The notes under the pieces: model-generated
The model's input: the letters and a program-made list of their open reading frames with translations, nothing else
Told to the model about the DNA's origin: nothing
Database searches by the model: none
From: an uncultured Rhodospirillales bacterium
Lineage (GTDB): Bacteria > Pseudomonadota > Alphaproteobacteria > ATCC43930 > CGMCC-115725
Reading direction: 5' to 3'
Length of the DNA: 64,000 bases
Assembly (NCBI GenBank): GCA_903828515.1
Contig: CAIKMD010000002.1
Coordinates: forward strand, 1 to 64,000
Position numbers and translations under genes: made by a program
In this document: piece after piece, positions 27,466 through 43,886 of the stretch
Numbering within the stretch: position 1 is the stretch's first letter
Layout: every line of letters begins with the position of its first letter

Positions 27466-28695
27466 ATGCTCACGATTGAACAAAACGAATTATTGACGCG
27501 GATCGGACGGGGCACGCCGATGGGCGGGTTGATCCGGCGATACTGGATACCGGCGCTATTCGCCGATCAATTGCCGGGGCCGGATTGCGATCCGGTTCGC
27601 GTCAAGCTGATGGGCGAGTCGCTCATCGCCTTTCGCGACACGCTCGGCCGGATCGGCCTGCTGCAGGAACTGTGTCCGCACCGAACGGCATCGCTGTTCT
27701 TCGGTCGCAACGAGGAATGCGGTATTCGCTGCATCTATCACGGCTGGAAATTCGACGTCGAGGGCAATTGCGTCGATCTGCCGACCGAACCGCCGACCAG
27801 TACGATCAAGGAACGCGTAAAGGCGAGGGCCTATCCTTGCATCGAACGCGGCGGCCTGATCTGGACCTATATGGGCCCCGCCGAACACCGTCCCGAGTTT
27901 CCCGCGATCGAGTGGACCGAATTGCCGGCGTCGCATCGGCGGATCAGCCGGCGGCTCCAGGAATGTAACTGGCTTCAGGCTCTCGAGGGCGGTTTCGATT
28001 CCACCCATTTGAGCTTTTTGCACAAAGGTGATCTTTCCTTCAGCCATCCCTTGCCGTCGGATTTCGAATTCAAGGTCACCGATTCCGGATTCATTTGCGG
28101 CTATGGACGGGAAATCGACGGACGCATGATGTGGTCGAGCGACACGCTGCTCATGCCGTTTCATAAATTGATCGGCACGGAGCTTCCCGGCGCGCATACC
28201 TGGGTGCCGGTGGATGATGAGACGACTTTGCTTTACAGCGTCGATTACAATCCGGAGCAGCCGCTCAGCGAGGCGCAACATGCGGCCTACGCCTCCGGTG
28301 ATCGGATGCACGCCGTGAATGAAGCCGGCTCCGACCGCATGGCGCAGAATCGCGATAACGATTATCGCATCGACCGTACCCATCAACGCAGCGGAAAATC
28401 CTTCAGCGGCATACGCGGTATCGGCGTGCAGGACACCGCGATTCAGGAAAGCATGGGATTGATCGCGGACCGGTCGCAGGAAAATCTCGGCGTTGGCGAT
28501 CTCGGAATCGTGCAGTTGCGCCGGTATCTGTTGCGGGCGGTCGAGGATTATCAGGCGGGGCGGGATATTCCGGCGCAAGAACCGAAATCCTACCGGATGC
28601 GCCCGCTCTGCTCGTACACGCCAAAAGGCCCGACCATGACCGAAATCATGGATACGCATCTGAAGGCGATGACCGCGCTCGCCATGAGGGCATAG
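27466..28695 (+). CDS. Rieske [2Fe-2S] aromatic ring-hydroxylating oxygenase, phthalate-dioxygenase-like (second copy)
   Basis: 409 residues. Rieske ligands C70-x-H72 and C89-x-x-H92; mononuclear iron D178, H181, H186. The N-terminal Rieske half is almost the same as in the protein from 22001-23215, but the substrate-binding half has diverged, suggesting a duplicated oxygenase with a different substrate. It is cotranscribed with the TrzA-like amidohydrolase, which hints at a nitrogen heterocycle or aminated ring as substrate; that is inference. Confidence 0.9.
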   Translation: MLTIEQNELLTRIGRGTPMGGLIRRYWIPALFADQLPGPDCDPVRVKLMGESLIAFRDTLGRIGLLQELCPHRTASLFFGRNEECGIRCIYHGWKFDVEGNCVDLPTEPPTSTIKERVKARAYPCIERGGLIWTYMGPAEHRPEFPAIEWTELPASHRRISRRLQECNWLQALEGGFDSTHLSFLHKGDLSFSHPLPSDFEFKVTDSGFICGYGREIDGRMMWSSDTLLMPFHKLIGTELPGAHTWVPVDDETTLLYSVDYNPEQPLSEAQHAAYASGDRMHAVNEAGSDRMAQNRDNDYRIDRTHQRSGKSFSGIRGIGVQDTAIQESMGLIADRSQENLGVGDLGIVQLRRYLLRAVEDYQAGRDIPAQEPKSYRMRPLCSYTPKGPTMTEIMDTHLKAMTALAMRA

Positions 28696-29076: not shown

Positions 29077-29111
29077 GGCCGCGCGCGTTGCGATGTTAAG
29101 CGCGCGCGGCC
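29077..29111. terminator. Strong hairpin between convergent genes
   Basis: GGCCGCGCGCG (29077-29087) pairs perfectly over 11 bp with CGCGCGCGGCC (29101-29111) around a 13-base loop. The right arm overlaps the last codons and stop of the allophanate hydrolase gene. Neither side has a long T run, so it may be a weak bidirectional terminator or a block to antisense read-through. Confidence 0.5.
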
Positions 29112-30919
29112 TTATATGCGCGCCAACCGCCGAACGCCGTAATGTTCTCGGCGGCGACGGCAGCGTAAGCCTCGCATAGAAATCCTTTGACCGTCGTGCC
29201 GTCGGCCAGCGTGATCGTGCCGATGCCGAGCGGCGGGGGAATGGCGGCCACGAACGCGCCGAACGCGATCGTCGGCATTTCCCAAATTTCGAGATCGATT
29301 CCTCCGGCGCCGACTCCGTCGAACACGAGGCCTGGTCGAGCTACCGAACCGTCTGACAAAGCGTAAAGGCTATAGCCGGTCGTGGTTCGTGCCGTGCGCG
29401 CCAGGATTGCGCCGCAGGCCGTGAGTTCATGATTGAGCGGCTGACCGGAAAGATGGGCGCCGAGAACGGCGACGCCGACCGTATCGCGCGTGGGCTCGTT
29501 GAGGATCGTCGGAGACGCCGGCGGCAAGCGGTGGCCGGTGGCGCCGATCGTGGCGGCGTCGAGCGTTCGATGCAGCCGGCCGGCGATGCCGGCAAGCATT
29601 CCATCCATGAAGGCCCGCCCGAACAACGTCACGCCGAAGGGCAGTCCGTTGGTGCGAAACCCCGCCGGAACTGCGACCGCCGATAGGTCGAGCAGATTGG
29701 TGAACGTCGTATAGCGCCCCAGATTACCGTTGAGACGGATCGGATCGGCCATGACCGCATCGATCCGATAGGTCGTGCCCGTGGTCGGCAACAGCATGAC
29801 ATCCATGCGCGACCATTCGACATCGGCCAGACGCGATAGCGCGGCCAGCCGGTATTGGCCCTCGAAGGCATCGACCGCGCTCAACGCACGCGCGCCGAGA
29901 ATGATCTCGCGGGTGACGGCGTTCATCGCATCGGGCGAGATGCGTGCGAAATCCTTGATCGCGGCAAGGCGCTCGGCGACCCAGGGACCGTCATAGAGAA
30001 GCTGACCCGCTTGCGCGAATGGCGTGAAATCGATCGCTGTCTTGATCCCACCGATCGCTTCCAGTCGAAGAACGCTATCGGCAAAGAGCGCCGCAGCCTC
30101 GGTGTCGCCGAAGAACTCAAGGGGCTCGGCGGGTACGCCGAAACGAAACGAGGCGGATATCGACGGTAGGTTGGTAGGGCCGGGCGCGTGACGCGACATC
30201 GGATCGTCGGGATCGAATCCCGCCGCGATACCGGCGACGCGGATGCCGTCCTCGACCGAGCCGGCGAAGACGGAGATGCAATCGAGGCTTCGGCAGGCGT
30301 TGACCAAGCCCCTGGTACTGAGCCAGCCGCGCGTCGGCTTGATCCCGACGATGTTGTTGAAGCCGGCTGGCACGCGGCCCGATCCCGCCGTGTCGGTGCC
30401 GAGAGAAAAGCTGATCCGGCCGTTCGCGACCGCGACGGCTGAGCCCGAACTCGATCCTCCCGAGATGTACCGCTCGTCGAAAGCGGACGATGGCACGCCG
30501 TAGGGTGAGCGGGTGCCGACAAGTCCGGTCGCGAACTGATCGAGGTTCTGCTTGCCGAGACAGATCGCGCCGGCCGCTTCGATCTTCTCGACGACGGTCG
30601 CGGAGCGCGTCGGGACATAGGCAAATCCCGGGCAACCCGCCGTCGTCGGCAATCCGGTGACGTCGATGTTGTCTTTGACGCCAAAGGGAATTCCGAAAAG
30701 CGGCAACGACTCGCCGGCGGCCCGCCGGCGCTTGGCATCATCGAGTCTCGCCATGATCGACGCCAAGGGCGCCACCGTAATCCATACGCTTTGCGTGGCA
30801 TCGGCGCCGATCCGGGCATGGAGGTCGGCGATAATCTGGGCGGGATCGAGCCCCGCGTCGTACGCGGCCGTCAATGACGCGATGTCGAGGGGGCGTTCGG
30901 TATCACACGGTTTCGACAT
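29096..30919 (-). CDS. atzF: Allophanate hydrolase
   Basis: 607 residues, the usual size. The N-terminal amidase-signature domain has the catalytic triad K82 (VKDNID), the cis-serine in GGSSSGS (156-158) and nucleophile S180 (DTAGSGR). Residues about 470-607 form the allophanate hydrolase C-terminal domain (VGVAVLGAHLSGQPLN ... ITAFGGWRAYKA), which sets full-length enzymes apart from plain amidases. It splits allophanate to ammonia and CO2 in the cytoplasm. It is the last gene of the nine-gene leftward operon; its ATG at 30919 overlaps the gntR gene by 17 bases. Confidence 0.93.
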   Translation of the reverse strand: MSKPCDTERPLDIASLTAAYDAGLDPAQIIADLHARIGADATQSVWITVAPLASIMARLDDAKRRRAAGESLPLFGIPFGVKDNIDVTGLPTTAGCPGFAYVPTRSATVVEKIEAAGAICLGKQNLDQFATGLVGTRSPYGVPSSAFDERYISGGSSSGSAVAVANGRISFSLGTDTAGSGRVPAGFNNIVGIKPTRGWLSTRGLVNACRSLDCISVFAGSVEDGIRVAGIAAGFDPDDPMSRHAPGPTNLPSISASFRFGVPAEPLEFFGDTEAAALFADSVLRLEAIGGIKTAIDFTPFAQAGQLLYDGPWVAERLAAIKDFARISPDAMNAVTREIILGARALSAVDAFEGQYRLAALSRLADVEWSRMDVMLLPTTGTTYRIDAVMADPIRLNGNLGRYTTFTNLLDLSAVAVPAGFRTNGLPFGVTLFGRAFMDGMLAGIAGRLHRTLDAATIGATGHRLPPASPTILNEPTRDTVGVAVLGAHLSGQPLNHELTACGAILARTARTTTGYSLYALSDGSVARPGLVFDGVGAGGIDLEIWEMPTIAFGAFVAAIPPPLGIGTITLADGTTVKGFLCEAYAAVAAENITAFGGWRAYKAARA

Positions 30920-31568
30920 AACGCTCGTAGGTGACTTCGACGGTTGTAATGTGCGACCGCATTTCGGCGACGGCGGCATCCTGATTGCGTTGCATGATAG
31001 CGGCAACGACACGGTCATGCTCGGCATGCGATCGCTTCAGGCGTCCGCGCGCGCGAAACTGCGTGCCGCTGAACGGCGATAGCCGGGTTCGCGTCGCGAA
31101 AGTCAGTTCGGCGAGATAGTCGTTGTGACTGCCGACATAAATCAATTCATGAAATTGTTCGTTCATCCGATGATAATGCTTCGGGTCGCCATTCTCGGCC
31201 AAGGCGCCGAGGTCGGCATGCAACGCCTGTAACTGCGTGCGTTCTTCGTCCGTCATGTGCAGCGCGGAGAGACCGGCGCATAACGCTTCAAGCTCGGCGA
31301 GAACGCCGAACATGCCGCGCAGCCGTTCCGGGCTCGGCTTGGCAACGATCGCGCTGCGATGCGGGCGGATTTCGACGAGGCCGGAAGCGGCAAGCTCGCG
31401 AATGGCCTCGCGGACCGGCGTCCGCGACACGCCGAATTTTTGCGCGATCTCGATCTCTTCGAGCGCCATGCCCGGCGAGATGCGTCCGGTCATGATTTCC
31501 TCGCCGATCAGGCTGCGCAACTCGGCGCCCCGTGTCGTGCTGCGCGGTTTTGCGCTGGCGTCAGCCAT
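30903..31568 (-). CDS. GntR-family regulator, FadR/FCD subfamily (operon-internal)
   Basis: 221 residues. The winged helix includes KFGVSRTPVREAIRELAASGLVEIRPHRSAIV (about residues 45-75). The C-terminal all-helical FCD ligand-binding domain has the conserved histidine pattern (MNEQFHELI, HAEHDRVVAAI). Its start overlaps the end of the AtzH-like gene by 8 bases and its end overlaps atzF. The likely targets are the TTGTATRCAA palindromes at 39047-39056 and 39350-39365 in the control region of this operon and the divergent biuret operon. Inducer probably a ureide. Confidence 0.9.
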   Translation of the reverse strand: MADASAKPRSTTRGAELRSLIGEEIMTGRISPGMALEEIEIAQKFGVSRTPVREAIRELAASGLVEIRPHRSAIVAKPSPERLRGMFGVLAELEALCAGLSALHMTDEERTQLQALHADLGALAENGDPKHYHRMNEQFHELIYVGSHNDYLAELTFATRTRLSPFSGTQFRARGRLKRSHAEHDRVVAAIMQRNQDAAVAEMRSHITTVEVTYERYVETV

Positions 31569-31941
31569 CGATCGTGCTCACTTGCGCAGCGACGACGCAC
31601 CAGCCGGTCGGCATGCGCGCCCAGGTTTGCATCTGGCGACCGATCTTGCCGGGCGCGCTCTCGCGGCGAAACAGGATGCTGGTGGTGGCGAAGTCGCGTC
31701 CGAACGTGGTGATGGTCGTGCGCTCGACGTTGCGGTCGAGGCCGGTCGGCGAGCGCCCGCGGCGGAAGGCGCGAATCTCGTCCATGCCGTGCAGATTCTC
31801 GCCACCGCCGTAGCGCACGGTCCGCTTGTCGTCCCAGAACAGGGCTTCCAGTACCGGCACGTCGTTGGCGATCAGAGCGGTTTGATAGCGCGCGAAGGCC
31901 GCCTCGACTTCGGCGACGATTTCCGGCAGATCGATCTCCAT
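31561..31941 (-). CDS. AtzH/HpxZ-like DUF3225 protein
   Basis: About 126 residues, a compact NTF2-like fold of the DUF3225 family: VEAAFARYQTALIANDVPVLEALFWDD and TVRYGGGENLHGMDEIRAFR, then RNVERTTITTFGRDFATT. Members are encoded beside AtzE-type amidases (AtzH in triazine catabolism, HpxZ in oxalurate catabolism). The second of two adjacent ATG codons (31941) is chosen because AGGAGG is 5 bases before it; the first (31944) leaves only 2. It starts 9 bases after atzE. Confidence 0.85.
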   Translation of the reverse strand: MEIDLPEIVAEVEAAFARYQTALIANDVPVLEALFWDDKRTVRYGGGENLHGMDEIRAFRRGRSPTGLDRNVERTTITTFGRDFATTSILFRRESAPGKIGRQMQTWARMPTGWCVVAAQVSTIDG

Positions 31942-31950
31942 CATTTCCTC

Positions 31951-33342
31951 CTAGAGCACGGCCGGTTTTATATGCGCGATGCCGTCCCGTTCCAACACGC
32001 GGGCGACCCGCAGCGCGAGATCCTCGCGCCACGGCGCGACGACGATCTGCACGCCGAGCGGCAGACCCTGATCGAGCCAGACCGGCGCGCAGACGACCGG
32101 GACCCCGATAAACGAAAACGGCTGGGTGAAGATACCGAGATTGGGGCGGACGGCCATCGTCTTGCCGTCGAGCGTGAATTCGCTTTGGCCGATTTTCGGC
32201 GCGCGTGCCGGCGTTGCCGGTGCCAGCACGACATCGACCGTCTCGAAGAGCTGGAGGACCTGCTCGCCGAACCAGCGGCGAAAGCGTTGCGCCTGGATGA
32301 TCCAGGCGTTGGGAATGGCCGCGCCGGCGATCAGCCGGTCGCGCACGGCGGGATCGAAATCGGCCCCGCGCGTGCGCAACCGGTCGATGTGAAGGGCGGC
32401 GCCTTCGGCGGCGGTAATGATATAGGCGGCGGCACGGGCGCGGGCCGCTTCGGGGATCTCAACGATCGTCGAGACATCCAGCGCCTGGGCGACTTTTTCG
32501 ACCGCGGCGAAGACGGCAGGTTCGCCCTGGCGCGCGAAATAGTCCTTGGCGATGGCGATCCGAACACCGCGCAGGCCGTTTTCGATACCGGGGAGGGCAG
32601 GCTCCGGGGCGCGCGTCGTCGTGGCCGGGTCGTCGGCATCGGGCCCCTGCATGGCGTCATAGGCGCGGGCCAGATCGGCGACATTGCGCGCTAGAGGCCC
32701 CAGGTGATCGAGACTATGCACGAACGGAAAACTACCGGCCCGGCTCAGCCGGCCATAGGTGGGTTTCAACCCGAAGACGCCGCACAGCGCCGATGGCACG
32801 CGGATCGATCCGTTGGTGTCGGAGCCGAGCGCTAGTGGCACGAAGCCGGCGGCGACGGCGGCGCCCGATCCACCGGACGATCCGCCGCTCATATGGTCGA
32901 GCGCATGCGGATTGCGGGACGGACCGTCATGGATATTCTCGCCGGTGAAGTCGTAGGCGTATTCGCCCATGTTGAGCGCGCCGACCAGAATGCCGCCCGC
33001 CGCTTCGAGGCGCCGGACGAGGGCGCCGTCACGCGCCGAGGGTGGGCGCTCGCGATTGATTTTCGATCCCGCGCGGGTGGGAAGTCCGGCGACATCGATC
33101 AGGTTCTTGACCGCGAAGGGAACGCCGGCGAGCGGACCCAGCTTCTCGCCGCGGGCACGCCTTTGGTCGATCGCGTCGGCTGTCGCGCGTGCGCGTGCCG
33201 CCACTACATCCGTGAAGGCGTTGACCTTGCCGTCATGCTGCTCGATGCGATCGAGGGTCTGGTCGATGACGGTGCGCGCCGCGATACGCCCGGTGCTGAC
33301 GGCGGCCGCGATCTCACCAGCCGTTGCGTCCACCGCGATCAC
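31951..33342 (-). CDS. atzE: AtzE/HpxY-type amidase, large subunit of 1-carboxybiuret or oxalurate hydrolase
   Basis: 463 residues of the amidase-signature family. Catalytic K79 (PFAVKNLID), cis-serine in GGSSGGS (155-156) and nucleophile S179 (GSDTNGSIR). AtzE needs the small AtzG subunit, and the gene for an AtzG-like protein directly precedes it with a GTGA overlap, the start codon being GTG at 33342. Known members deaminate 1-carboxybiuret to 1,3-dicarboxyurea (cyanuric acid route); the Hpx homologues act on oxalurate. Both outcomes feed ammonia release, so the exact substrate is open. Confidence 0.88.
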   Translation of the reverse strand: MIAVDATAGEIAAAVSTGRIAARTVIDQTLDRIEQHDGKVNAFTDVVAARARATADAIDQRRARGEKLGPLAGVPFAVKNLIDVAGLPTRAGSKINRERPPSARDGALVRRLEAAGGILVGALNMGEYAYDFTGENIHDGPSRNPHALDHMSGGSSGGSGAAVAAGFVPLALGSDTNGSIRVPSALCGVFGLKPTYGRLSRAGSFPFVHSLDHLGPLARNVADLARAYDAMQGPDADDPATTTRAPEPALPGIENGLRGVRIAIAKDYFARQGEPAVFAAVEKVAQALDVSTIVEIPEAARARAAAYIITAAEGAALHIDRLRTRGADFDPAVRDRLIAGAAIPNAWIIQAQRFRRWFGEQVLQLFETVDVVLAPATPARAPKIGQSEFTLDGKTMAVRPNLGIFTQPFSFIGVPVVCAPVWLDQGLPLGVQIVVAPWREDLALRVARVLERDGIAHIKPAVL

Positions 33343-33542
33343 AGGCGGTAGACCGGTGCCGGCTCAATCTCGTCCTCGAGCGGAAACGCGAGGACCAGAA
33401 GGGCCTGTTCTTCCGACACCTTGAGATGCGCCAGCGCGCTCAGGCGCCACGCTGGCAGGACGTGGAATTTCAGCACGGCCAAGGTCGCGTCGAGCAACGC
33501 CTCGCGTTCTTCATCGGTCGACAGCGATCGAAACTGGGTCAT
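33339..33542 (-). CDS. atzG: AtzG/HpxX-like small subunit (DUF4089)
   Basis: 67 residues, matching the AtzG/DUF4089 family in size and in the pattern LDATLAVLKFHVLPAWR followed by an acidic C terminus (FPLEDEIEPAPVYRL). AtzG is a GatC-like partner that completes the AtzE amidase. It overlaps atzE by 4 bases and starts 12 bases after the ABC ATPase gene. The ribosome binding site is weak, so translation may be coupled to the upstream gene. Confidence 0.85.
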   Translation of the reverse strand: MTQFRSLSTDEEREALLDATLAVLKFHVLPAWRLSALAHLKVSEEQALLVLAFPLEDEIEPAPVYRL

Positions 33543-33554
33543 GCCTACGCGCGA

Positions 33555-35249
33555 TTAGACAGGTGGATGGGGAATGGCGTCAATCAGTTCGCGCGTATAG
33601 TCGGCTTTGGGCGCTTCAAGAACCTGCTCGGCGGTGCCTTGTTCCACGATCCGGCCCTGGCGCATCACGATGACTCGATCGCACAACAGGCGGACGACGT
33701 GAAGGTCATGGCTGACGAAGAGGTAGCTCATGCCCAGAGTCGCCTTGAGGTCCTGCAACAGATTGAGCACGACGGCCTGCACCGACACGTCGAGCGCGGC
33801 GGTCGGCTCGTCCAGGATCACCAGTTCGGGCCGCAATGCGATGGCGCGGGCAATGCCGACCCGCGCCTTTTGTCCGCCGGAAAGCTGATGCGGAAACCGG
33901 TCGAGCAGGTTGCCAGGCAAACCGACGAGCCGCGCGAGTTCTTCGACCTGGGTGCGAACGCTGCCTGAGCCCGTGTCTTCGCCCATGCGCAGGATCGGAT
34001 CGGCAATGGCGCGCGCCGCGGTGTAGCGCGGATTGAGGCTGTCGGTGGGGTCCTGGAATACCATCTGGATGCGTCGCCGCCATGCCGAGCCGGCGAAACG
34101 CCGTGCGGGGATCGTGCCGATATCCTCGCCGGCGAAAACGATCTTGCCGGCCGTTGGATCGAGGAGCCGCATCACCATCATCGAGGTTGTCGATTTGCCG
34201 CAGCCCGATTCGCCGACGAGGCCGACGCTTTCGCCGGTGCCGACCTCGAAGCTGATGCCGTCGACGGCGCGAAACGCGCTCGTGTCCTGATCGGATTTGC
34301 GGCCGAAGAACTTGGCAAGTCCACCGCTGGCATCCTGCCGGCGGTATTCCTTCACCAGATTCTCGACCTTGAGGATTGGCGTGCCGCCGAGCGCAACCGG
34401 TGCCGGTGCGATCGGCGGTGTTGCGATTTCCTCGGGAAGAAGGTCGCGCAAGGTGATGCCGGGACGCGGCGTGGCGCGTACCAGTTTGCGCGTATAGCGA
34501 TGTGTCGGCTTCAGGAAGATGGACGTCGATTCTGCTGACTCGACGACCTTACCCTGCTCCATCACGATGACTTTGTCGCAATAGGTGGCGGCAAGCCCGA
34601 GATCGTGGGTGATCAGGATCGTCGACATATTGCGTTCGCGGGTCAACTCGACGACGAGGTCCATGACGGCCTTTTGCGTCGTCACGTCGAGGCCGGTCGT
34701 CGGCTCGTCGGCGATCAGGAGCTGGGGTTTGCAGGCGAGCGCGAGTGCGATGACGATGCGTTGGCACATGCCGCCCGAGAGCTCGAAAGGATAGGCGTGA
34801 TAGCGTTCCTCGGGGTTCGCGATGCGGACCTGGCGAAGAATGCCGATCGCCTTTTCCTTCGCGTCGCGCGACGTCGCTTGAACGTGCTCGATCAGCACAT
34901 CTTCGATCTGTCGGCCGACCTTGCGAATCGGATTGAGCGCCGCGCGCGGGTTCTGGAAGATCATCGATATCTCGCGCCCGCGCAGATCGCGCATCGCGCC
35001 TTCGCTGATCGTCCGCAGGTCGGTACCGCCGAAGCTGACCGTGCCGTCGGCAATCCGGCCGGCGCGATCGAGGATACGCATGACGGCATAGGACGTGACC
35101 GACTTTCCCGAGCCGGATTCGCCCACGATGCCGACGGTTTCGCCTTTGGCGATCGTCAGGCTGACTTTCTCGACCGCCCGCACGGTGCCGCGCCGCGTGG
35201 CGAATTCGACGGTAAGGTTCTGAATGTCGAGGAGGGCTGTATCGGACAT
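33555..35249 (-). CDS. Fused ABC transporter ATP-binding protein, DppD-DppF type
   Basis: 564 residues with two complete nucleotide-binding domains. Walker A motifs are GESGSGKS (first) and GESGCGKS (second); signature motifs are LSGGMCQR and LSGGQKAR; Walker B ends LLIADEP and LVILDEP. It powers the peptide/nickel-type importer encoded just upstream (genes at 35257-38832). The start lies 7 bases after the DppC-like gene. The next gene downstream is atzG, which ties the importer to amide hydrolysis. Confidence 0.93.
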   Translation of the reverse strand: MSDTALLDIQNLTVEFATRRGTVRAVEKVSLTIAKGETVGIVGESGSGKSVTSYAVMRILDRAGRIADGTVSFGGTDLRTISEGAMRDLRGREISMIFQNPRAALNPIRKVGRQIEDVLIEHVQATSRDAKEKAIGILRQVRIANPEERYHAYPFELSGGMCQRIVIALALACKPQLLIADEPTTGLDVTTQKAVMDLVVELTRERNMSTILITHDLGLAATYCDKVIVMEQGKVVESAESTSIFLKPTHRYTRKLVRATPRPGITLRDLLPEEIATPPIAPAPVALGGTPILKVENLVKEYRRQDASGGLAKFFGRKSDQDTSAFRAVDGISFEVGTGESVGLVGESGCGKSTTSMMVMRLLDPTAGKIVFAGEDIGTIPARRFAGSAWRRRIQMVFQDPTDSLNPRYTAARAIADPILRMGEDTGSGSVRTQVEELARLVGLPGNLLDRFPHQLSGGQKARVGIARAIALRPELVILDEPTAALDVSVQAVVLNLLQDLKATLGMSYLFVSHDLHVVRLLCDRVIVMRQGRIVEQGTAEQVLEAPKADYTRELIDAIPHPPV

Positions 35250-35256
35250 GGCGGCC

Positions 35257-36162
35257 TCAGGTCCGGCGCTGTGGGTCGACGATGTCGCGCAATCCGTCGC
35301 CCAAGAGATTGAAGCAGAACACGGCCAGCATCAGGGCCGCGCCGGGGAAGAACGCGATCCACCAATCGCCGGAGACGATGAAGCCCGCGCCTTCGGCGAC
35401 CATGATTCCCCATTCGGGCGTCGGCGGCTTCACGCCCAGCCCGATGAAGGAAAGCCCGGCCGCGTTCAGGATTGCATAGCCCATGGTCAGCGACATCTGG
35501 ACCACCATGATCGGCATGATATTGGGCAGGATTTGCGTCAGCACGATTCGCATTTCGCTGTTGCCGGTCAGGCGCGCGGCCTGCACGAAACCGGAATCAC
35601 GGCGGATATTGGCTTCGGCGCGGGCGATCCGCGCGTAAAGCGGGAAGTTGATGATCGCGGTCGCGATCACGATGTTGGTCACCGTGTTGCCCAGTGCGGC
35701 GACGATGCCCATGGCCAGCACGAAGAGCGGAAAGGCCATGATCGTGTCGGCGGTGCGTCCCACCACCTGATCGATCCAGCCGCCGAAGAAGCCGGCGGCG
35801 ATGCCGGCGACGCCGCCCATCGCGAAAACCAGGGCCACCGAGAAGACGGCGATTGCCATGTCGAGCCGCGTGGCCACGACGACGCGGCTGAACATATCGC
35901 GGCCGAGTTGATCGGTGCCGAACCAGTGTTGCAGGGACGGCGGTTTCAGAGCCGCGGCGGTGTCGCTGGCCAGCGGGCTGTAGGGTACGATCGCCGGTCC
36001 GATCACCGCGCAGATGAGCAGGACGACAAACAAGGCGAAGGCAATGCCGCTGACCGGGTTTTCGGCAAACGTATAGCGGGCATGCTGCAACGTGGCGGTC
36101 GCGCTGCGCATAAACCCGGATGATGTGGCCGTCGGTTCGGCCTCGGTTTCGAGCGCGCTCAT
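35257..36162 (-). CDS. ABC transporter permease, DppC type
   Basis: 301 residues with about six membrane segments. The N-terminal cytoplasmic stretch is followed by the OppC-N pattern (NPVSGIAFALFVVLLICAVIGPAIVPY) and a permease core with the EAA loop VQAARLTGNSEMRIVLTQILPN. Its ATGA start overlaps the stop of the DppB-type gene. It is part of the importer in the nine-gene operon. Confidence 0.92.
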   Translation of the reverse strand: MSALETEAEPTATSSGFMRSATATLQHARYTFAENPVSGIAFALFVVLLICAVIGPAIVPYSPLASDTAAALKPPSLQHWFGTDQLGRDMFSRVVVATRLDMAIAVFSVALVFAMGGVAGIAAGFFGGWIDQVVGRTADTIMAFPLFVLAMGIVAALGNTVTNIVIATAIINFPLYARIARAEANIRRDSGFVQAARLTGNSEMRIVLTQILPNIMPIMVVQMSLTMGYAILNAAGLSFIGLGVKPPTPEWGIMVAEGAGFIVSGDWWIAFFPGAALMLAVFCFNLLGDGLRDIVDPQRRT

Positions 36163-37172
36163 GCTTCGATCCTCACGCGCGGATCGATCACGCCATAGAG
36201 GATGTCGATGAGCAGATTGAGCATGACGTAGAGAATGGCCATCGTCAGGACGAAGCCCTGCACGGGCGCGAAGTCGGATTTGATCAGCGCGTCGACGGCA
36301 TAGGAGCCGATCCCCGGCCAGGCGAATACTTTTTCCACCAGCACGTTCGCGCCGAGCAGAAACGAGAACACCATACCGAGCGTGGTGACGACCGGCAGCA
36401 TTGCATTGCGAAAGGCATAGGTCACGATGACGGCCCGCGTCGAAAGCCCGCTGGCTTTTGCGGTGCGCACGAATTCGGATGACAGCGCCGCCAGCATCGA
36501 TGCGCGGGTCATGCGCGCGATTGGCGCGAGCGCGAACATGCCGAGCGTTACGGCCGGCAGGATTAATTGGGCGAACGCGGCACGGAACGTTTCGAAATCG
36601 CGCGCGATCAGGCTGTCGATCAGGTAGAACCCGGTTATCGAATTGGGCGCGGTACTGAAGACATCAAGGCGTCCCATTGGAGGTGGCGCCCAGCCGAGGC
36701 GGTAATAAAAGAGGTAGACGAGGAGCAAGCCGCTGAAGAAGACGGGCAGAGATACGCCGGCGGTCGCGACGACGCGGCAGAGATGATCGATCCACGATCC
36801 CTGGCGCACCGCCGCCAGGATACCGAGCGGCACCGCGACCACGATGCCGAGAACCAGCCCGGCCAGCGTCAACTCGGCCGAAGCGGGCAACCGGGTCCGG
36901 ATGTCTTTCACGACAGTTTGGCCGGTGCTGAGCGAAGCGCCGAGATCGCCCTTCGCCAGGGCTTCGACGTAACTGACGAACTGCACCGGAAGCGACCGGT
37001 CCAGTCCGAGTTTCTTCTTCACCTCTTCGATTGCCTGGGGCGTTGCGGCGGGTCCCGCGAAGTAAGCGGCAGTGTCGCCGGGCAACACCCGCGTGAGGAG
37101 GAAGGTCACAATGATCACGCCGATGAGCGTCGGCAGCGCCGTCAGGAGACGTCGGGCGATCTGGCTCAACAT
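36159..37172 (-). CDS. ABC transporter permease, DppB type
   Basis: 337 residues with six membrane segments. The start LSQIARRLLTALPTLIGVIIVTFLL is the usual DppB opening, followed by LPGDTAAYFAGPAATPQAIEEVKKKLGLD in the periplasmic part and the EAA loop FVRTAKASGLSTRAVIVTYAFRNA. The ATG at 37172 is preferred over a TTG seven codons earlier, from family start position. It is 34 bases after the binding protein gene and overlaps the DppC-type gene by 4 bases. Confidence 0.92.
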   Translation of the reverse strand: MLSQIARRLLTALPTLIGVIIVTFLLTRVLPGDTAAYFAGPAATPQAIEEVKKKLGLDRSLPVQFVSYVEALAKGDLGASLSTGQTVVKDIRTRLPASAELTLAGLVLGIVVAVPLGILAAVRQGSWIDHLCRVVATAGVSLPVFFSGLLLVYLFYYRLGWAPPPMGRLDVFSTAPNSITGFYLIDSLIARDFETFRAAFAQLILPAVTLGMFALAPIARMTRASMLAALSSEFVRTAKASGLSTRAVIVTYAFRNAMLPVVTTLGMVFSFLLGANVLVEKVFAWPGIGSYAVDALIKSDFAPVQGFVLTMAILYVMLNLLIDILYGVIDPRVRIEA

Positions 37173-37206
37173 GATAAGGCCGCTACGCCGCAACCGGCGC
37201 CCGGTC

Positions 37207-38832
37207 TCACGCTTTCACCATGGCGCGATAATCGAGCCGGCGGTGGAACCAGTATTGATAACCCGTGACGTTCTTCTGCATCGCGACGTTGACATAGGGC
37301 TGATAGAGCGGAACGCGCGGAATGTCGTTGAAGGCCAGCGACACGAACCCTTTGACGTCCTTGTCGTACGTGGCCTTGTCGCCGCTGGCGGCGGACTTGC
37401 GCGCGCCGTCGATCAGCGCGTCCATGTCCTTCGATTGGTAGCTCATGGTGTTGAAGACCGAATTCTGGCCATCGTAGCACCAGTAGAAGAAGTATTCCGG
37501 GTAATCGAGCCAGCCCGAGAAGACATTGGTATAGAGCGGCATGACTTTCTTGTTCAGCTCGGTTCGCCAATTGGCGCCCGGAATCTTGTTGAGCGTTACC
37601 TTGATCCCGATCTGCGCGAGGCTTTCCTGCGTCAACACGCAGATCGGCTCGTTGACCACGGCGAAACCGAGATCGAACGACATCGTGGTCTCGAAGCCGT
37701 TGGGGTAGCCCGCCTCGGCGAGCAACTGCTTGGCCTTCGCGATGTCGGTGTTGTAGCTGTGCGCCTGCGGCCAGGCGACGTCGACCGGCGCATTGGCGGC
37801 CGCACCGAATAGCGGCTTGGCGAGACCGTAGAGCACGGCATCCATGATCTTTTGATAGGGAATGGCGCAAGCCACGGCCTGCCGCACCTTCACGTTGTCG
37901 AAGGGCGGCTTGGTGACGTTCATGCCGATGTACTGGATGCCGTTGCTGTAGGGCGTCGACACGATGCTGACCTTGCCGGCCTGGCGCAGGTCGACGAAAT
38001 CCTTGTTGGGCAAATCGTAGGACACGTCGGCATCGCCGCGTTCCAGAAGCGCGCGGCGGTTGCCGGCATCAGGCACCATCCGCCAGATCACACGCTTGGT
38101 CTTCGGCAGCGGGCCGCCCTTCCAAGTCTCGTTGCGCTCGAAGACGACCTCGGTATCGGGCGTCCATTTGGTGACTTTATAGGCACCGCTGCCGGCGGTG
38201 TTCTGTTTGGTGTATTCGAGGCCCCACGGATCGGTCGCCGTCGCGTTTTTCTTCACCAGCCCCGAATTGTAAATGCCGGGTACGATGACCGCGAGGTCGG
38301 GAACCGTGAGCCGATCCTTGGTCAGATAATCGACGCGAATGGTGTGGTCGTCGACAATGACGAACTGTTCGGCTTTCGTCATGCTGCCGGCCGACATCTG
38401 GAAGGTCGGGAAGCCGCCGACCGTCACGGCGCGGTCGAGCGACCATTTGACGTCCGCGGCGGTGACCGACGTGCCGTCCTGGAAGGTCGCGTCCTTGCGC
38501 AGCTTGAAGGTGACCGACATGTCGTCTGTCTTCATGTCTTCGGCGAGTTCGGGCTTGAACTTGTCGCGATCGTAATACTGCGTGCCGTTCGCCAGCGTCT
38601 TCATCTCGTGGCTGATCAGGCGGTCATAGCAGTTCCAGCTCGCCTCATAGCCGGGCACGTTGGTGCCGACGCCCTGAATGTCGAGATTGTTCGGTCCGCT
38701 CTCGGAAACGATGAGCAGGGTTTCGGATCGCGCGTCCGCCTTGGCGGGCGACCAGATCGCCGGCGCCGCGACGCCGGTGCCGGCGGCCAGCGCGGTAACG
38801 GAAGCGGATTGAAGAAATTTGCGACGGTCCAT
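37207..38832 (-). CDS. ABC transporter substrate-binding protein, family 5, of the ureide operon
   Basis: 541 residues. MDRRKFLQSASVTALAAG is a near-perfect twin-arginine signal, so it should be folded before export. The SBP_bac_5 fold is marked by LRKDATFQDGTSVTAADVKWSLDRA and the middle motif GSGAYKVTKW. It is the first gene of the nine-gene operon and decides the cargo of the DppBCDF-like importer. With amide hydrolases downstream, a ureide such as oxalurate, biuret or a carboxylated form is the likely ligand (inference). GGGGGA lies 7 bases before the ATG. Confidence 0.92.
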   Translation of the reverse strand: MDRRKFLQSASVTALAAGTGVAAPAIWSPAKADARSETLLIVSESGPNNLDIQGVGTNVPGYEASWNCYDRLISHEMKTLANGTQYYDRDKFKPELAEDMKTDDMSVTFKLRKDATFQDGTSVTAADVKWSLDRAVTVGGFPTFQMSAGSMTKAEQFVIVDDHTIRVDYLTKDRLTVPDLAVIVPGIYNSGLVKKNATATDPWGLEYTKQNTAGSGAYKVTKWTPDTEVVFERNETWKGGPLPKTKRVIWRMVPDAGNRRALLERGDADVSYDLPNKDFVDLRQAGKVSIVSTPYSNGIQYIGMNVTKPPFDNVKVRQAVACAIPYQKIMDAVLYGLAKPLFGAAANAPVDVAWPQAHSYNTDIAKAKQLLAEAGYPNGFETTMSFDLGFAVVNEPICVLTQESLAQIGIKVTLNKIPGANWRTELNKKVMPLYTNVFSGWLDYPEYFFYWCYDGQNSVFNTMSYQSKDMDALIDGARKSAASGDKATYDKDVKGFVSLAFNDIPRVPLYQPYVNVAMQKNVTGYQYWFHRRLDYRAMVKA

Positions 38833-38867
38833 GCCTGGGTCCCCCCTGTTTCGTCAGGAAAGCTGTT

Positions 38868-38882
38868 TCAAGACCCGTGCCA
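38868..38882 (-). promoter_or_regulatory. Candidate sigma-54 promoter of the nine-gene ureide operon
   Basis: Read on the minus strand the sequence is TGGCACGGGTCTTGA. The -24 block TGGCACG is perfect and the spacing to TTG is exact, but the -12 GC is GA. Transcription would begin about 24 bases before the ATG at 38832. The mismatch at -12 keeps this tentative. Confidence 0.45.
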
Positions 38883-39046
38883 AGCGTCGGCTCGGGTAAC
38901 CCCGGCTCGCAGGCAGCTTGTGCAAGTCGATGAATCGGCTCGCTATTTATTTTTGCGACGGGATCGTGGGGCGCCGTGCGTTCGATCACGCGGGACGCAT
39001 GCTGCCGATTAGAAAATAAGCGGCGCGGTTATATTGTATGCATTGT

Positions 39047-39056
39047 TGTATACAAG
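39047..39056. promoter_or_regulatory. Candidate GntR operator, copy 1
   Basis: TTGTATACAA is a perfect 10-base palindrome of the type recognised by FadR/FCD GntR regulators. It is preceded by the related half TTGTATGCAT (39035-39044). With the following GATTG it forms the 15-base block TTGTATRCAAGATTG that recurs at 39353-39367. Confidence 0.6.
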
Positions 39057-39167
39057 ATTGAGCAGGCCAACCTTGTGGCTATGCGGGTTAGAGATCGAGA
39101 CGCCGGAGCCGGCGATCGATGGCCTGCGCCAAAATCGGGCAGACCTTTTGCGTCATTTTGTTGCAGT

Positions 39168-39229
39168 CGCTCAAAATTTAGCGAGGGCGACTCCAAACGC
39201 GATTTTTGCCTGCACGCGCGCGTTTGAGC
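39168..39229. repeat. Nested inverted repeats upstream of the biuret operon promoter
   Basis: CAAACGCG (39194-39201) is the inverse of CGCGTTTG (39219-39226) with 17 bases between them. Outside it, GCTCAAA near 39169-39175 is the inverse of TTTGAGC (39223-39229). The block ends about 80 bases before the sigma-54 element, the usual distance for an enhancer-binding activator. The sequence does not clearly match a NtrC site. Confidence 0.4.
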
Positions 39230-39307
39230 GGCATGCAATGAAGATAGGTCTGTGCTGAAACGAATAGTTCATCGAACGTCGTCGGTTCGCCGATGTCAGT
39301 GCGTGTT

Positions 39308-39323
39308 TGGCATGACGCTTGCA
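39308..39323 (+). promoter_or_regulatory. Sigma-54 promoter before the outer-membrane protein/biuret hydrolase operon
   Basis: TGGCATGACGCTTGCA matches the consensus TGGCACG-N4-TTGCA at every position but one, with GG and GC exactly in register. Transcription would start near 39334, about 160 bases before the first gene. RpoN dependence implies an activator such as NtrC and fits genes for nitrogen scavenging. Confidence 0.75.
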
Positions 39324-39349
39324 CCGTCGATCCTGAGATGTTGCATTCT

Positions 39350-39365
39350 ATCTTGTATGCAAGAT
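39350..39365. promoter_or_regulatory. Candidate GntR operator, copy 2, just after the sigma-54 start site
   Basis: ATCTTG (39350-39355) and CAAGAT (39360-39365) are perfect inverted arms around TATG. The core TTGTATGCAAGATTG repeats the block at 39047-39061. At roughly +16 to +31 relative to the predicted start site, a bound repressor would block transcription. Confidence 0.65.
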
Positions 39366-39496
39366 TGCTTGACGACACCGATTCGTTCGCGGTTCAGGGG
39401 ATCGCGGACGCATGCCGGACACACTGCGCCGCACGCAAAAAGACGACAAAAAGTAATCGGGGAGGATCGCCACCACACAAACTGAGGGGGCTATCC

Positions 39497-40378
39497 ATGT
39501 ATAAAGTTTTGATCGCGGCCATCGCCGCGTTGGCCATCGGCGCGGCAGCGACAGAAGCCAGGGCCGCCGATAGCGAACCATCCGCGATCCACGCCTTCGT
39601 GGATCTCTCGTTCAAGAATGCCTACATCACGCCGCGCGGCTTGCTGGTGACGAACAAGGGGCTGACCACGCAGCTCCTGACCGGCCTTGCTTTCGACTTC
39701 TATGACAGTTCCACCGGCATGATCAATAACGTGTCCGGTTCGGCCGGGTTCTGGAACGATTTCGCGACGAACCAAAACGCCGCCAAGGTCGGCTCGTGGA
39801 ATGAGTTCGATTGGTTCGTCGGCGGCAACGTCACCTTCTTCAAGGATTGGACGGCCGGCGCGACCTTCTTGGACTTCCTTAGCCCTCCGGGCGCGTTCAA
39901 GGCTGAAAAGAACATCGAGTTCAGTCTCGGTTTCAACGACAGTCCCTATCTGAAGCCGATATCCTTCCATCCCTACGCCAAGCTGTTCTACGCGATCGCG
40001 GGTGATTCCACGGTGGTACTCGGCAAGAAGGGTGGCACCTACGATGTCGAACTGGGTATGGTCCCGACGATCGACGTCAGCCCGATGGGCATTCCGGTCA
40101 CGTTGACTTTTCCGACCTGGATCACGGTGGGACCGGCATCTTATTGGGGCGGTAAGAGCAATTTCGGCGTCGTCTCGACCGGCATTTCGGCGAAGACCCC
40201 GCTCAGCTTCATCTCGCCGCGTTATGGGAGCTGGTACGTCGATGCCGGCCTCCAGTACTACAACCTGATCAACGGCAAGCTCGTCGCGGCGCAGATCGCC
40301 GACGGCGTCGCGGTGTCGAATACCAAGGGCAACAACAACGTCTTGGTTGGCTCGGTCGGGATCGGCTTCGGGTTCTGA
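39497..40378 (+). CDS. Putative outer-membrane beta-barrel protein
   Basis: 293 residues. A signal peptide ends at ARA-ADS (about residue 24). The mature part is rich in alternating strands with many aromatic and glycine residues ([35 protein letters not shown]) and ends GSVGIGFGF with a terminal phenylalanine, as outer-membrane proteins do for assembly by the Bam complex. The ATG at 39497 follows GAGGGGG. First gene of the biuret operon, so it may serve as an uptake channel. No named family recognised. Confidence 0.7.
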
Positions 40379-40509
40379 CCGCGATGCCGCGCGTTCCGAT
40401 GTCGACGGCCGGTGACCCCGCCGGCGTCGGAACGCGGGCAGAGCGCCATCGCCTCGATCGCATCCCTGGGCACGATTTTTGCTTCGCAACAAGGGCAAAG
40501 GAGGGCGAC

Positions 40510-41184
40510 ATGTCCGTCATCTCCGCCGACCCGTATCCCTTCGATTTCGCAGGGCCGCACGCGGCACTGCTGATCATCGACATGCAGCGCGACTTTCTCG
40601 AACCCGGCGGGTTCGGATCGTCACTCGGCAATGACGTATCGTTGTTGCGCCAGACGATCGAGCCGACGATGAGGCTGCTGGCGGCATTTCGACGGGCGGG
40701 TTTGCTCGTCATTCATACCCGCGAAGGCCATCGCCCCGATCTCTCGGATTTGCCGGCCGCGAAGAAGCGCCGCGGACACGCGAAACTGGCGATCGGCGAC
40801 GCGGGCCCGATGGGACGCGTACTCGTGCGCGGCGAACCGGGGCACGACATCATCCCCGAGCTTTATCCCATCGCCGGCGAGCCGGTGATCGACAAGCCGG
40901 GGAAGGGCGCGTTTCATGCAACGGATCTCGACGCGATCCTCAAGAACCGCGGGGTCGAGCAACTGATCGTCTGCGGTGTGACGACCGAGGTTTGCGTCAA
41001 CACCTCGGTGCGCGAAGCGAACGACCGTGGCTACGACTGCCTCGTCGTGTCCGATTGCGTCGGTTCCTACTTTCCCGAATTCCAGACGATGGGCTTGCGG
41101 ATGATCGCGGCTCAAGGCGGCATTTTCGGATGGGTCGCGCCATCCGATGCCGTGATCGCTGCTCTCGAATCAAACCAAGTCTGA
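40510..41184 (+). CDS. biuH: Cysteine hydrolase of the isochorismatase family, likely biuret amidohydrolase
   Basis: 224 residues. The catalytic triad is D24 (LIIDMQRDF), K129 (IDKPGKGAF) and C162 ([21 protein letters not shown]), with the cis-peptide V157-T158. The [19 protein letters not shown] region resembles biuret hydrolase (biuret to allophanate plus ammonia) and its relative RutB. The gene for allophanate hydrolase, the next enzyme, is in the divergent operon, which supports BiuH. AGGAGGGCGAC directly precedes the ATG. An upstream in-frame start at 40384 has no ribosome binding site. Confidence 0.82.
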
Positions 41185-41197
41185 GGGGGATTATCCA

Positions 41198-42787
41198 ATG
41201 ACCACGGCAACACACGCACCCCGTTGGTGGGTACCTGGCGACTTCAACGCTTTCTTCGGTTTCGGGACGAACATTCTGGTCAACATCCTCGTCCTGACCG
41301 GGCTGCTTCGCTTCGTGCTCAAGATGCCCGACGCGCTGGTGTTCGGCCGCATCCTGCCCGCCACGGGCCTGATGCTCCTGATCAGCACGATCTACTATGC
41401 CTGGCTCGGTTATCGGCTGGCCAAGAAGACGGGGCGCAACGATGTTTGCGCGTTGCCCTCGGGGATCAGCGTCCCGCACATGTTCGTGGTCACGTTCGTG
41501 ATCATGTTGCCGATCCTCGGGCGCACCAACGATCCGGTTCAGGCCTGGGAAGCCGGCCTGACCTGGGTGTTCGTGCAAAGCTTCGTGTTGATGGCGGGCG
41601 GCTTCGTCGCGCCCTGGATCCGCCGCATCACGCCGCGCGCGGCGTTGCTCGGTTCGCTCGCTGGCATCTCGATCACCTTCATCTCTTTGAGCCCGGCGCA
41701 GCAGATGTTCATGACGCCGGCGATTGGCCTCGTCTGCTTCGCGGTCATTCTCGCCAGCTGGTTCGGCGGGGTTCGCTACTACAAGGGCATTCCGGCGGGG
41801 CTCGTGGCGATCGGTGTCGGCACGGTGATCGCCTGGGGCTCGAACCTGTTCGGTCTTCACTACGGCGATCTCAGTCTCGGCGGATTGAAGGATTCATTCG
41901 CCAATTTCGGCTTTGAATTTCCGCTTCCCGCCGTCGGCCACGTGTTTTCGGGATTCAAATTTATCGGCGTGATCCTTGTCACGGCGATCCCGTTCGGCAT
42001 CTACGATCTCGTCGAGGCCATGGACAACGTCGAAAGCGCTTCGGCGGCCGGCGACGCGTTTCCGACCACACAGGTGCTCACCGCGGATGGCGTCGTCAGC
42101 CTGATCGGTTGCCTCATGGGCAATCCCTTCATCAATGCCGTCTATATCGGCCATCCGGGATGGAAGGCGATGGGCGGCCGGCTCGGCTATTCCGCCGCCA
42201 CCGGTATTTTGATGATCGTGCTTACCTGGTTCGGCATCATTTCGCTGATGCTGGCGGTGATTCCGGTGATCGCGATTCTGCCGATTCTGCTCTACATCGG
42301 CATGCTGATCGGCTCGCAGGCATTCCAGGAGACGCCGCCAAGCCACGCGCCGGCGATCGTCCTTGCCTTGGTTCCGCAGATCGCGGCCTGGGGGCAAACC
42401 CAGGTCGACGGTGCGCTCGGTGCGGCGGGAACCAGCGCCGAGGCTGTCGGCATCGACAAGCTGGGGCAGGTCGGGGTGCTCTATCGCGGCCTCGAAATCC
42501 TCGGCGGTGGCGCGACGTTGGGCGGCATCATCCTCGGTTCGATCACTGTCTTCATCATCGAACGCGAATTCAACAAGGCCGCCTATTTCGCGTTGACCGG
42601 AACCGCGCTGACCTATTTCGGCCTCATCCACAGCCAGGCGATCGGGTTCGGCCATTCGCCGACCGTGGCGGCCAGTTATCTCGCGGTCGCGATCGTCCTG
42701 TTTGTCTGCGCCCGCTACGCCGCGCTCGAACCGAAACCGTCGGAAATTCATCATCCGCATGCGATGAGTACGGAACCGGCCGAGTGA
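41198..42787 (+). CDS. NCS2-like (xanthine/uracil-type) permease
   Basis: 529 residues with 12-14 hydrophobic segments. TNILVNILVLTGLLRFVLKMP near the start, CALPSGISVPHMF and AFPTTQVLTADGVVSLIGCLMGNPF in the centre resemble the nucleobase-cation symporter-2/sulfate permease superfamily, in the branch often annotated as xanthine/uracil/vitamin C permease. It starts 14 bases after biuH, so it likely imports the BiuH substrate or a related ureide across the inner membrane. Exact cargo unknown. Confidence 0.85.
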   Translation: MTTATHAPRWWVPGDFNAFFGFGTNILVNILVLTGLLRFVLKMPDALVFGRILPATGLMLLISTIYYAWLGYRLAKKTGRNDVCALPSGISVPHMFVVTFVIMLPILGRTNDPVQAWEAGLTWVFVQSFVLMAGGFVAPWIRRITPRAALLGSLAGISITFISLSPAQQMFMTPAIGLVCFAVILASWFGGVRYYKGIPAGLVAIGVGTVIAWGSNLFGLHYGDLSLGGLKDSFANFGFEFPLPAVGHVFSGFKFIGVILVTAIPFGIYDLVEAMDNVESASAAGDAFPTTQVLTADGVVSLIGCLMGNPFINAVYIGHPGWKAMGGRLGYSAATGILMIVLTWFGIISLMLAVIPVIAILPILLYIGMLIGSQAFQETPPSHAPAIVLALVPQIAAWGQTQVDGALGAAGTSAEAVGIDKLGQVGVLYRGLEILGGGATLGGIILGSITVFIIEREFNKAAYFALTGTALTYFGLIHSQAIGFGHSPTVAASYLAVAIVLFVCARYAALEPKPSEIHHPHAMSTEPAE

Positions 42788-42811: not shown

Positions 42812-43549
42812 CTATGCGCCGGATATCCGGCCCAGGGCGAGGTCGACTCCGCCCCGGCGGGGGCGCTCGGTCGCCGTGTGAAGAACCCGCGCTTCGTGCA
42901 GCATATGGAGCGTGATCTTGCGGACTTCTTGCTTGCTGTGGGTGATGTGCGCCCGCAACAGCATCACGGCCTGATCGGCCCTGTGACGCAGGATCTGGCG
43001 CAAAAGTTTCGCATGTTCCTCGTAGGTGGCCGCAATGCGTTGCTCTTTGAGGAAATCCAGCCGTCGGATGACGCGAATTTTTTCGGTGACGTCGGCATGG
43101 ACGCGCGCGAGTTCGCGGTTGCCCGCGGCTTCCACCAGCGTCCGATGAAAGGCTTCGTCGAGTTTGGCGACTTCCTTCGCGCTGGTTTCCCGCTGCGCCG
43201 GCGCCACCAGCCAGATCGCCTTGAGGGCTTCGAGGTCGAATTCGCGATCGGACTGGCACAGGCGTTCGACGGCCGCGCATTCGACGACGACGCGCAGGTC
43301 GTAAAGTTCGTCGAAGCGCGCGAAATCGAGCGGCAGGACGCGCCAGCCCGATCGAAACGCGACCTCGAGAAATCCTTCGTGCTTCAGGCGATAGAGCGCG
43401 TCGCGGACCGGGGTTCGCGACACGGCATAACGCTCGGCGATTTCGGTTTCCGTGAAGCGGTCGCCGGGCAACAGGCGAAAATCGGCGATTTCCGCCTTGA
43501 TCCGCACATAGACTTTTTCGGCGAGCTGGTTGACGCGGCGAGCGGCCAT
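42812..43549 (-). CDS. GntR-family regulator, FadR/FCD subfamily (next to the urea genes)
   Basis: 245 residues. Winged helix with ERYAVSRTPVRDALYRLKHEGFLEV near residues 40-63; FCD domain with AKLDEAFHRTLVEAAGN and HAKLLRQILRHRADQA. It is divergent from urtA across 381 bases that hold two palindromes (43719-43730 and 43770-43784), so autoregulation and control of the urea genes are likely. It converges on the permease gene with 24 bases between. Confidence 0.9.
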   Translation of the reverse strand: MAARRVNQLAEKVYVRIKAEIADFRLLPGDRFTETEIAERYAVSRTPVRDALYRLKHEGFLEVAFRSGWRVLPLDFARFDELYDLRVVVECAAVERLCQSDREFDLEALKAIWLVAPAQRETSAKEVAKLDEAFHRTLVEAAGNRELARVHADVTEKIRVIRRLDFLKEQRIAATYEEHAKLLRQILRHRADQAVMLLRAHITHSKQEVRKITLHMLHEARVLHTATERPRRGGVDLALGRISGA

Positions 43550-43858: not shown

Positions 43859-43873
43859 TGGCCCGGATTTTGC
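43859..43873 (+). promoter_or_regulatory. Sigma-54 promoter of the urea transport/urease operon
   Basis: TGGCCCGGATTTTGC matches TGGCACG-N4-TTGC with one difference; the GG (43860-43861) and GC (43872-43873) are in exact register. The start site would be near 43885, about 46 bases before the urtA ATG. This fits known NtrC/RpoN control of urea uptake. Confidence 0.75.
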
Positions 43874-43886
43874 GCTGGGCTTTATC

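Follow-up and report, generated by a model that had tools for sequence, protein, structure and literature searches.

How is an operon for an outer-membrane barrel, a TrtA-type amidohydrolase and a probable permease controlled, and by which signals? The first gene of this predicted operon begins at position 39497 of the window, the 64-kb stretch of DNA that we analysed. An earlier note had placed a sigma-54 promoter and a GntR-like operator at 39308–39365, and had read the pair as a two-input gate: nitrogen limitation through RpoN and an activator, and substrate release of a GntR repressor encoded at 30903–31568.

Regulatory elements of the intergenic region

The following elements lie between the two divergent operons, in the intergenic region 38833–39496.

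39308–39323, plus strand: sigma-54 promoter (−24/−12) TGGCATGACGCTTGCA; exact consensus match, predicted +1 about 39334
39341–39350: weaker dyad TTGCATTCTA, accompanying the operator at 39350–39365
39350–39365: putative GntR-type operator ATCTTGTATGCAAGAT, predicted +17 to +32; dyad match and recurrence in relatives
39125–39141: best candidate for an NtrC-like enhancer, TGCGCCAAAATCGGGCA, statistically weak (equalled in 8 of 100 mononucleotide shuffles)
39031–39060: second putative operator copy (TTGTATGCAT and TTGTATACAA), in front of the divergent operon
38867–38882, minus strand: sigma-54-like box TGGCACGGGTCTTGAA of the divergent operon, degenerate in lacking the GC of −12; the boxes of the orthologous loci L105 and L106 are intact

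The region 39308–39365 is a predicted sigma-54 promoter with a GntR-type dyad at its start site, which confirms the earlier observation. TGGCATGACGCTTGCA has the GG and GC of −24 and −12 at the exact spacing and no mismatch to TGGCAYRNNNNTTGCW (TGGCAYR-N4-TTGCW), the degenerate form that we take to be the sigma-54 consensus. The previous description, one base from consensus with exact spacing, holds against TGGCACG, whereas against the degenerate consensus the match is exact. It is the sole exact match within the window, and 200 dinucleotide-shuffled windows held 10 in all, about 0.05 per window. When up to two mismatches are allowed, the window has 24 matches against a mean of 21.69 in the shuffles; the relaxed pattern is no commoner than chance, and therefore only the exactness of the match is informative. 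The whole genome (4,826,446 bases, 4.83 Mb, in 11 contigs) has 7 exact matches and none to the reversed-pattern control, and it encodes RpoN (PF04552, E 1.8e-66).

With the predicted +1 set 12 bases after the C of TTGC, at 39334, ATCTTGTATGCAAGAT spans +17 to +32, where a dyad had been reported at about +16 to +31. A dyad with 6-bp arms, taken alone, would be a weak indication. At up to two mismatches, ATCTTGTATRCAAGAT occurs at five places genome-wide, and two of the five are in this intergenic region. A repeat search of the region returned one long direct repeat of 30 nt, 39031–39060 and 39338–39367, 77% alike. Each copy holds one of the only two exact TTGYATRCAA dyads of the window and, 12 bp ahead of it, a second, weaker dyad that scores 9 and 8 of 10 in the two copies. 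The element at 39350–39365, a short dyad near TTGTATACAA at a promoter, is a candidate operator. TGGCN7TTGC and TTGYATRCAA stand within 30 bp of each other at 2 places in the genome, the second of which lies ahead of a ring-opening amidohydrolase gene, at none in the reversed-pattern control and at none in 100 shuffles of the window. The strong dyad of the 39308 promoter (+20 to +29) lies further downstream than in the relatives compared. Tandem dyads 12 bp apart were considered as a rule and rejected: at 20 sites the mean −12/+12 scores are 4.6/4.45 against 3.06 of 10 overall, and a score of at least 8 is reached in 5 of the 20, a tendency rather than a rule.

Two elements were absent from the earlier note: the left operator copy at 39031–39060, which precedes the divergent operon starting at 38832, and the degenerate sigma-54-like box before that operon. 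In L105, TGGCACGAACCTTGCG stands just before the start codon of the orthologous solute-binding-protein gene; TGGCACGGGTCTTGAA has the same place in the window and lacks the C of −12.

Genes on the two sides

The genes of the locus are listed from the predicted operon outward.

39497–40378, plus strand: outer-membrane beta-barrel, first gene of the operon (structure model and fold search)
40504–41184, plus strand: TrtA-type (triuret/biuret) cysteine amidohydrolase (sequence comparison, motif)
41198–42787, plus strand: multi-spanning membrane protein, probable permease (conserved in the genomes G286 and G081)
42812–43549, minus strand: FCD-type GntR regulator, favoured repressor of the 39350 operator (PF00392 and PF07729)
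37207–38832, minus strand: family 5 solute-binding protein, encoded first in the divergent operon
33555–37193, minus strand: ABC transporter permeases and ATPase of the divergent operon
33339–33542, minus strand: 67-aa AtzG-like ORF (place and size)
31951–33342, minus strand: AtzE-family amidohydrolase
31561–31944, minus strand: AtzH/HpxZ
30903–31568, minus strand: FCD-type GntR regulator encoded within the divergent operon, preferred candidate for the 39031–39060 operator (PF00392 and PF07729)
29096–31027, minus strand: AtzF allophanate hydrolase (ORF start mechanical, overlapping gntR)

The barrel protein has no Pfam match. Its model has a mean pLDDT of 76, and Foldseek matches such as OmpG, the COG4313 channel and Tsx have TM-scores near 0.5. 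The same family also precedes TrtA-type or urtA genes at four loci (L014, L015, L017 and L118). The third gene product has neither a Pfam nor a PDB match and its structure model is unusable (mean pLDDT 45); we presume it to be NCS2-like. Its Terrarubrum relative is annotated “regulator”. Both regulators carry the GntR winged helix and the FCD domain above cut-off.

The hydrolase at 40504–41184 is predicted to be of the TrtA type. It matches triuret hydrolase TrtA (6XIX, 282.7 bits) better than the biuret hydrolases 6XJM (260.7) and 6AZO (251.9), keeps the catalytic Asp/Lys/Cys, and has the TrtA-type motif DMQRDF..PGGFG..LGNDV rather than DMQTDFCG.GGYVD.MGYDL. Its score with the BiuH model NF050097, 283.3 bits, is below the curated cut-off of 370 and places it outside BiuH. 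Where a locus holds two members of this hydrolase family, one of each type is present in 10 of 11 cases; in L109 the second member is more distant. No second member was found in this genome at E 1e-20.

Carboxybiuret is the product of TrtA (excerpts of PMC7948467), and it is converted by AtzEG with AtzH to allophanate, which passes to AtzF (excerpts of PMC6219798). The locus looks like a urea-oligomer nitrogen-scavenging island, and its gene set probably scavenges nitrogen from urea-like waste compounds. A UrtA gene lies past the GntR gene at 42812–43549, and the translations that follow look like those of more urea-transport genes and of urease genes. A sigma-54-like box, TGGCCCGGATTTTGCG, is found at 43859–43874 (2 mismatches, exact spacing), 57 bp before urtA (43931).

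Recurrence of the layout and the two regulators

Does the layout recur where related genes are found? The three-gene operon is also found in G286, a genome from another family of the class (identities 49%, 78% and 51%), where TGGCACGCGGATTGCT and then ATCTTGGATACAAGAA at +5 to +20 precede it and an ortholog (66%) of the GntR at 42812–43549 lies immediately upstream. In G081, the operon comes with TGGCACGCGAATTGCT and its dyad is at −1 to +9; the divergent GntR there is 37% identical to 30903–31568 and 30% to 42812–43549. The biuret cluster of the Enterobacter ECNIH3 plasmid has TGGCATGGATCATGCT and ATCTTGTACACAAGAA (core +6 to +15), and that of Ideonella has TGGCCCGTCGCTTGCT and CTTGTATACCAG (core −11 to −2); their regulators are 56% and 59% identical to 42812–43549. 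R. leguminosarum and R. tumorigenes also have exact sigma-54 boxes, which precede their cyanurate/biuret operons. A box within one mismatch is missing in 5 of the 9 named loci, two of those stretches being short or not the operon's front. For Klebsiella, the scanned stretch without a box misses the front of the operon, and a box does stand in the similar Enterobacter cluster. In Terrarubrum, the same gene set comes with dyads (best 9 of 10) and no sigma-54 box. L014 has a box before the OMP gene and no operator.

Across the class, 9 of 385 genomes have the pattern pair, at 10 places in all; the control pattern has 3 places, in 2 genomes. Among the 8 places outside this genome, those of G081 and G357 alone look promoter-like on reading; the others are mixed or probably chance. 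In G357 (L112, 9205–9238; also L024), a sigma-54 box and a TTGTATGCAA dyad at −2 to +8 precede an FCD GntR gene itself, which adjoins an amino-acid-type ABC transporter; this is perhaps self-regulation with the same layout in another setting.

Within this genome, a ATCTTGTATRCAAGAT-like dyad directly follows TGGCACCGTGATTGCC at C7:1031, ahead of a ring-opening amidohydrolase gene (C7:1011–2226, L013) near the contig edge. The protein scores over the TIGR02714 cut-off, and 300.7 with the AtzD equivalog model, whose cut-off is 360. At C3:572391 (L012), some 300 bp ahead of a solute-binding-protein gene, a dyad overlaps the −24 element of TGGCATACTTTTTGCG, and on C10 (C10:2261, L008) a weaker dyad has a similar place before a flavin-monooxygenase gene. 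These two promoters, whose dyads score 9 and 8 of 10 and lie beside or over −24, are suggestive only. The ATCTTGTATRCAAGAT-like site at C3:509104 had no sigma-54 box in the scan. Together, the C7 amidohydrolase gene, G286, G081, Enterobacter and Ideonella lend comparative support to the two-signal reading. Relatives of the ring-opening amidohydrolase were tried as further support and set aside: in the 600 bp upstream of 23 such genes (63 bp only for one), the operator CTTGYATRCAAG at up to two mismatches was found in none and a sigma-54 box within one mismatch in 3. Contigs C3, C7 and C10 terminate in similar genes for a flavin monooxygenase and a solute-binding protein, and the assembly therefore seems broken there.

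Which GntR protein reads which operator? At E 1e-35, relatives of 30903–31568 occur in 51 of the 385 class genomes, this one included. At 29 loci of such relatives, YTGYATRCAR lies within 1.5 kb in 11, several of them also with a sigma-54 box. Fifteen regions of up to 20 kb were taken, that of G357 surrounding its promoter pair rather than a relative of 30903–31568. A regulator of this type, urea-oligomer genes, an exact TTGYATRCAA and a sigma-54 box stand together in L103–L109 and L113. L110 and L114 have the site without urea-oligomer genes, L111 has these genes and the box with no exact site, and L100–L102 have no site and no linked gene of the set except weak ATPase matches. The window and the ten regions L103–L111 and L113 contain 17 TTGYATRCAA sites in 263 kb against 0.2 expected, and the control loci (152 kb) contain none; because of this enrichment, the clade of 30903–31568 very probably reads TTGYATRCAA. 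In L103–L108, the exact sites precede the sigma-54 box, at a distance of about 90 to 270 bp from the predicted start, and weaker matches (9 and 8 of 10) overlie −24 in L103 and L104; L109 is left out of this comparison of positions.

Relatives of 42812–43549 are found in 2 of the 384 other genomes of the class sample: G286, with the same operon and operator, and G086, with neither element by the patterns used. No TTGYATRCAA-like site stands in front of 42812–43549. We favour this protein, as the fairly probable assignment, for the OMP promoter and 30903–31568 for the left operator. The earlier choice of 30903–31568 would place it at the 39350 operator, with 42812–43549 controlling other genes, such as the adjoining urea-transporter genes. 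This is a serious but clearly less probable reading, in which the gate itself would be real. It draws on the relatives of 30903–31568 beside TTGYATRCAA sites and urea-oligomer genes in L103–L109 and L113, on G081, where the operon with a start-site dyad has a GntR nearer 30903–31568, and on the likeness of the two intergenic dyads (39031–39060 and 39338–39367). However, the operon and like dyad of G286 lie beside the ortholog of 42812–43549, and the Enterobacter and Ideonella clusters with this layout have regulators of the 42812–43549 clade. The C...G flanks seen at 39350–39365, in G286, in Enterobacter and in Ideonella are rare around relatives of 30903–31568 (1 of 16 exact sites), and the three closest of these relatives (64–66%) have no site within 1.5 kb or in 20 kb. 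Thus, the 39350 operator probably has a cognate repressor other than 30903–31568.

Proposed two-signal control and its known counterparts

Promoter opening: We consider it likely that the sigma-54 promoter and the FCD-GntR operator gate the outer-membrane channel, the TrtA-type amidohydrolase and the probable permease by two signals. RNA polymerase-sigma54 would sit waiting on −24/−12, and nitrogen shortage would activate the enhancer-binding protein, most likely NtrC in its phosphorylated form, that opens the promoter.

Repressor release: When substrate is lacking, the GntR protein, probably 42812–43549, would cover about +5 to +32 and block opening or clearance until it is released by a compound of the pathway, which may be triuret, carboxybiuret or biuret. 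The analysis shows the sequence elements, their rarity and their recurrence; binding, the direction of regulation, the ligand and the operon structure we infer. In this scheme, release needs the pathway compound and opening needs the active enhancer-binding protein; therefore, both signals would be needed. Through the operator copy at 39031–39060, the divergent operon (ABC transporter, AtzE-G-H, GntR and AtzF) may be controlled in a similar way.

The two-input gate of the earlier note is partly supported: the sigma-54 box and the GntR-type dyad at the start site belong to a nitrogen-scavenging locus, the genome encodes RpoN and NtrC, and the pair recurs in operons of related kind. The repressor named there is doubtful. 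Nitrogen control through NtrC we infer; the genome encodes NtrC (719.2 bits, cut-off 558.6), and consensus scans and gapped-palindrome enumeration over 16 upstream regions gave no convincing NtrC enhancer; most of the words returned were rich in GC or derived from the operator. Neither of the genome's two amtB loci offered a usable sigma-54 reference.

Other readings of the promoter have to be weighed. The activator may be another enhancer-binding protein, the global signal then not being nitrogen shortage; the lack of an NtrC-like enhancer in these scans and four further long matches to the NtrC model in the genome fit this, but all the genes served concern nitrogen compounds, NtrC is encoded, and the Ideonella region has GCACACCCTTGGTGC upstream of its box, one mismatch from the palindrome scanned. 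We regard this as unlikely. Less likely still is a GntR protein that is partly an activator or competes with the enhancer-binding protein, the start-site dyad being a secondary site. Most dyads in relatives do lie upstream of the sigma-54 box, with exact ones so placed in L103–L108 and at the divergent operon here, whereas the dyad is at the start site at 39308–39365 and in G286, G081, Enterobacter and Ideonella. A fortuitous −24/−12 match, with the dyad controlling an unseen sigma-70 promoter, is very improbable: chance does yield exact matches at the low rate given above, and Terrarubrum has dyads free of sigma-54 boxes, but no sigma-70-type promoter was found, and the sigma-54/dyad pair recurs at related operons.

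The logic of the gate has a counterpart in Pseudomonas. The HutC repressor of P. aeruginosa, a member of the GntR family, has a footprint that overlaps the sigma-54 site of hutU (excerpts of PMC12977541), and HutC, CbrB and NtrC all bind the hutU region (excerpts of PMC8871633); GntR-repressor/sigma-54 logic is therefore already known. As far as these excerpts go, the likeness extends to a GntR-superfamily site overlapping or adjoining the sigma-54 promoter (here as a layout in the DNA), to NtrC nitrogen control with substrate release, the logic that we propose for the 39308 promoter, and to the HutC operator core TGTA-N2-TACA, which resembles the dyad at 39350–39365. Unlike the hut system with its histidine genes, the present one has FCD-type GntR proteins. 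With the HutC model, the two regulators score 34.7 and 25.6, far under the 220-bit cut-off, and fall outside the HutC subfamily. The effector domain of HutC is presumably of the UTRA type. The gate would thus work like HutC-hutU and not be a member of it.

AtzR is a LysR-type regulator, and atzR reportedly is under sigma-54/NtrC control. The AtzR/atzDEF system of Pseudomonas sp. ADP resembles this locus in a catabolism that ends in AtzE/AtzF and in an inducible operon (excerpts of PMC4362333), and differs in its LysR-type regulator and the lack of a GntR operator. With the TrtA/BiuH urea-oligomer pathway, our locus shares a TrtA-type enzyme, AtzF, and carboxybiuret as the meeting point; those studies, in the excerpts of PMC7948467 and PMC5806882, concern enzymes. 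The words “promoter” and “operon” are absent from the latter, and “regulator” has one match, in a reference. Among the matches listed from the open-licence literature, mostly titles and abstracts, none describes GntR/sigma-54 control of triuret, biuret or cyanuric acid genes.

What appears new is that the known gate logic is carried by FCD-type regulators and a urea-oligomer gene set, in an arrangement that seems real and recurrent. The enzymes for triuret, biuret and cyanuric acid are already characterised, and for the regulation of nitrogen scavenging from these compounds there is now a concrete model that can be tested. The locus is, moreover, a natural setting where a single intergenic region may be shared by two related repressors that act at distinct positions with respect to sigma-54 promoters. 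More tentatively, the urea-oligomer scavenging genes of alpha-, beta- and gammaproteobacteria might share a portable sigma-54 and FCD-GntR module, in which paralogous repressors read near-identical dyads, at the start site (42812–43549 type) or in the enhancer region (30903–31568 type). If this were true, paralogous repressors would block different steps of sigma-54 activation at two divergent operons of one intergenic region.

Two observations stand apart from this argument. The E. coli plasmid pEc673-2 (L054, 9995–17205) carries genes for a TrtA-type cysteine hydrolase, DUF2877, fdrA, DUF1116, carbamate kinase and a cytosine permease, and 78 Escherichia plasmid records have a relative. The window also contains two Rieske-type oxygenase genes, alike by eye and on opposite strands, at 22001–23215 (minus) and 27466–28695 (plus).
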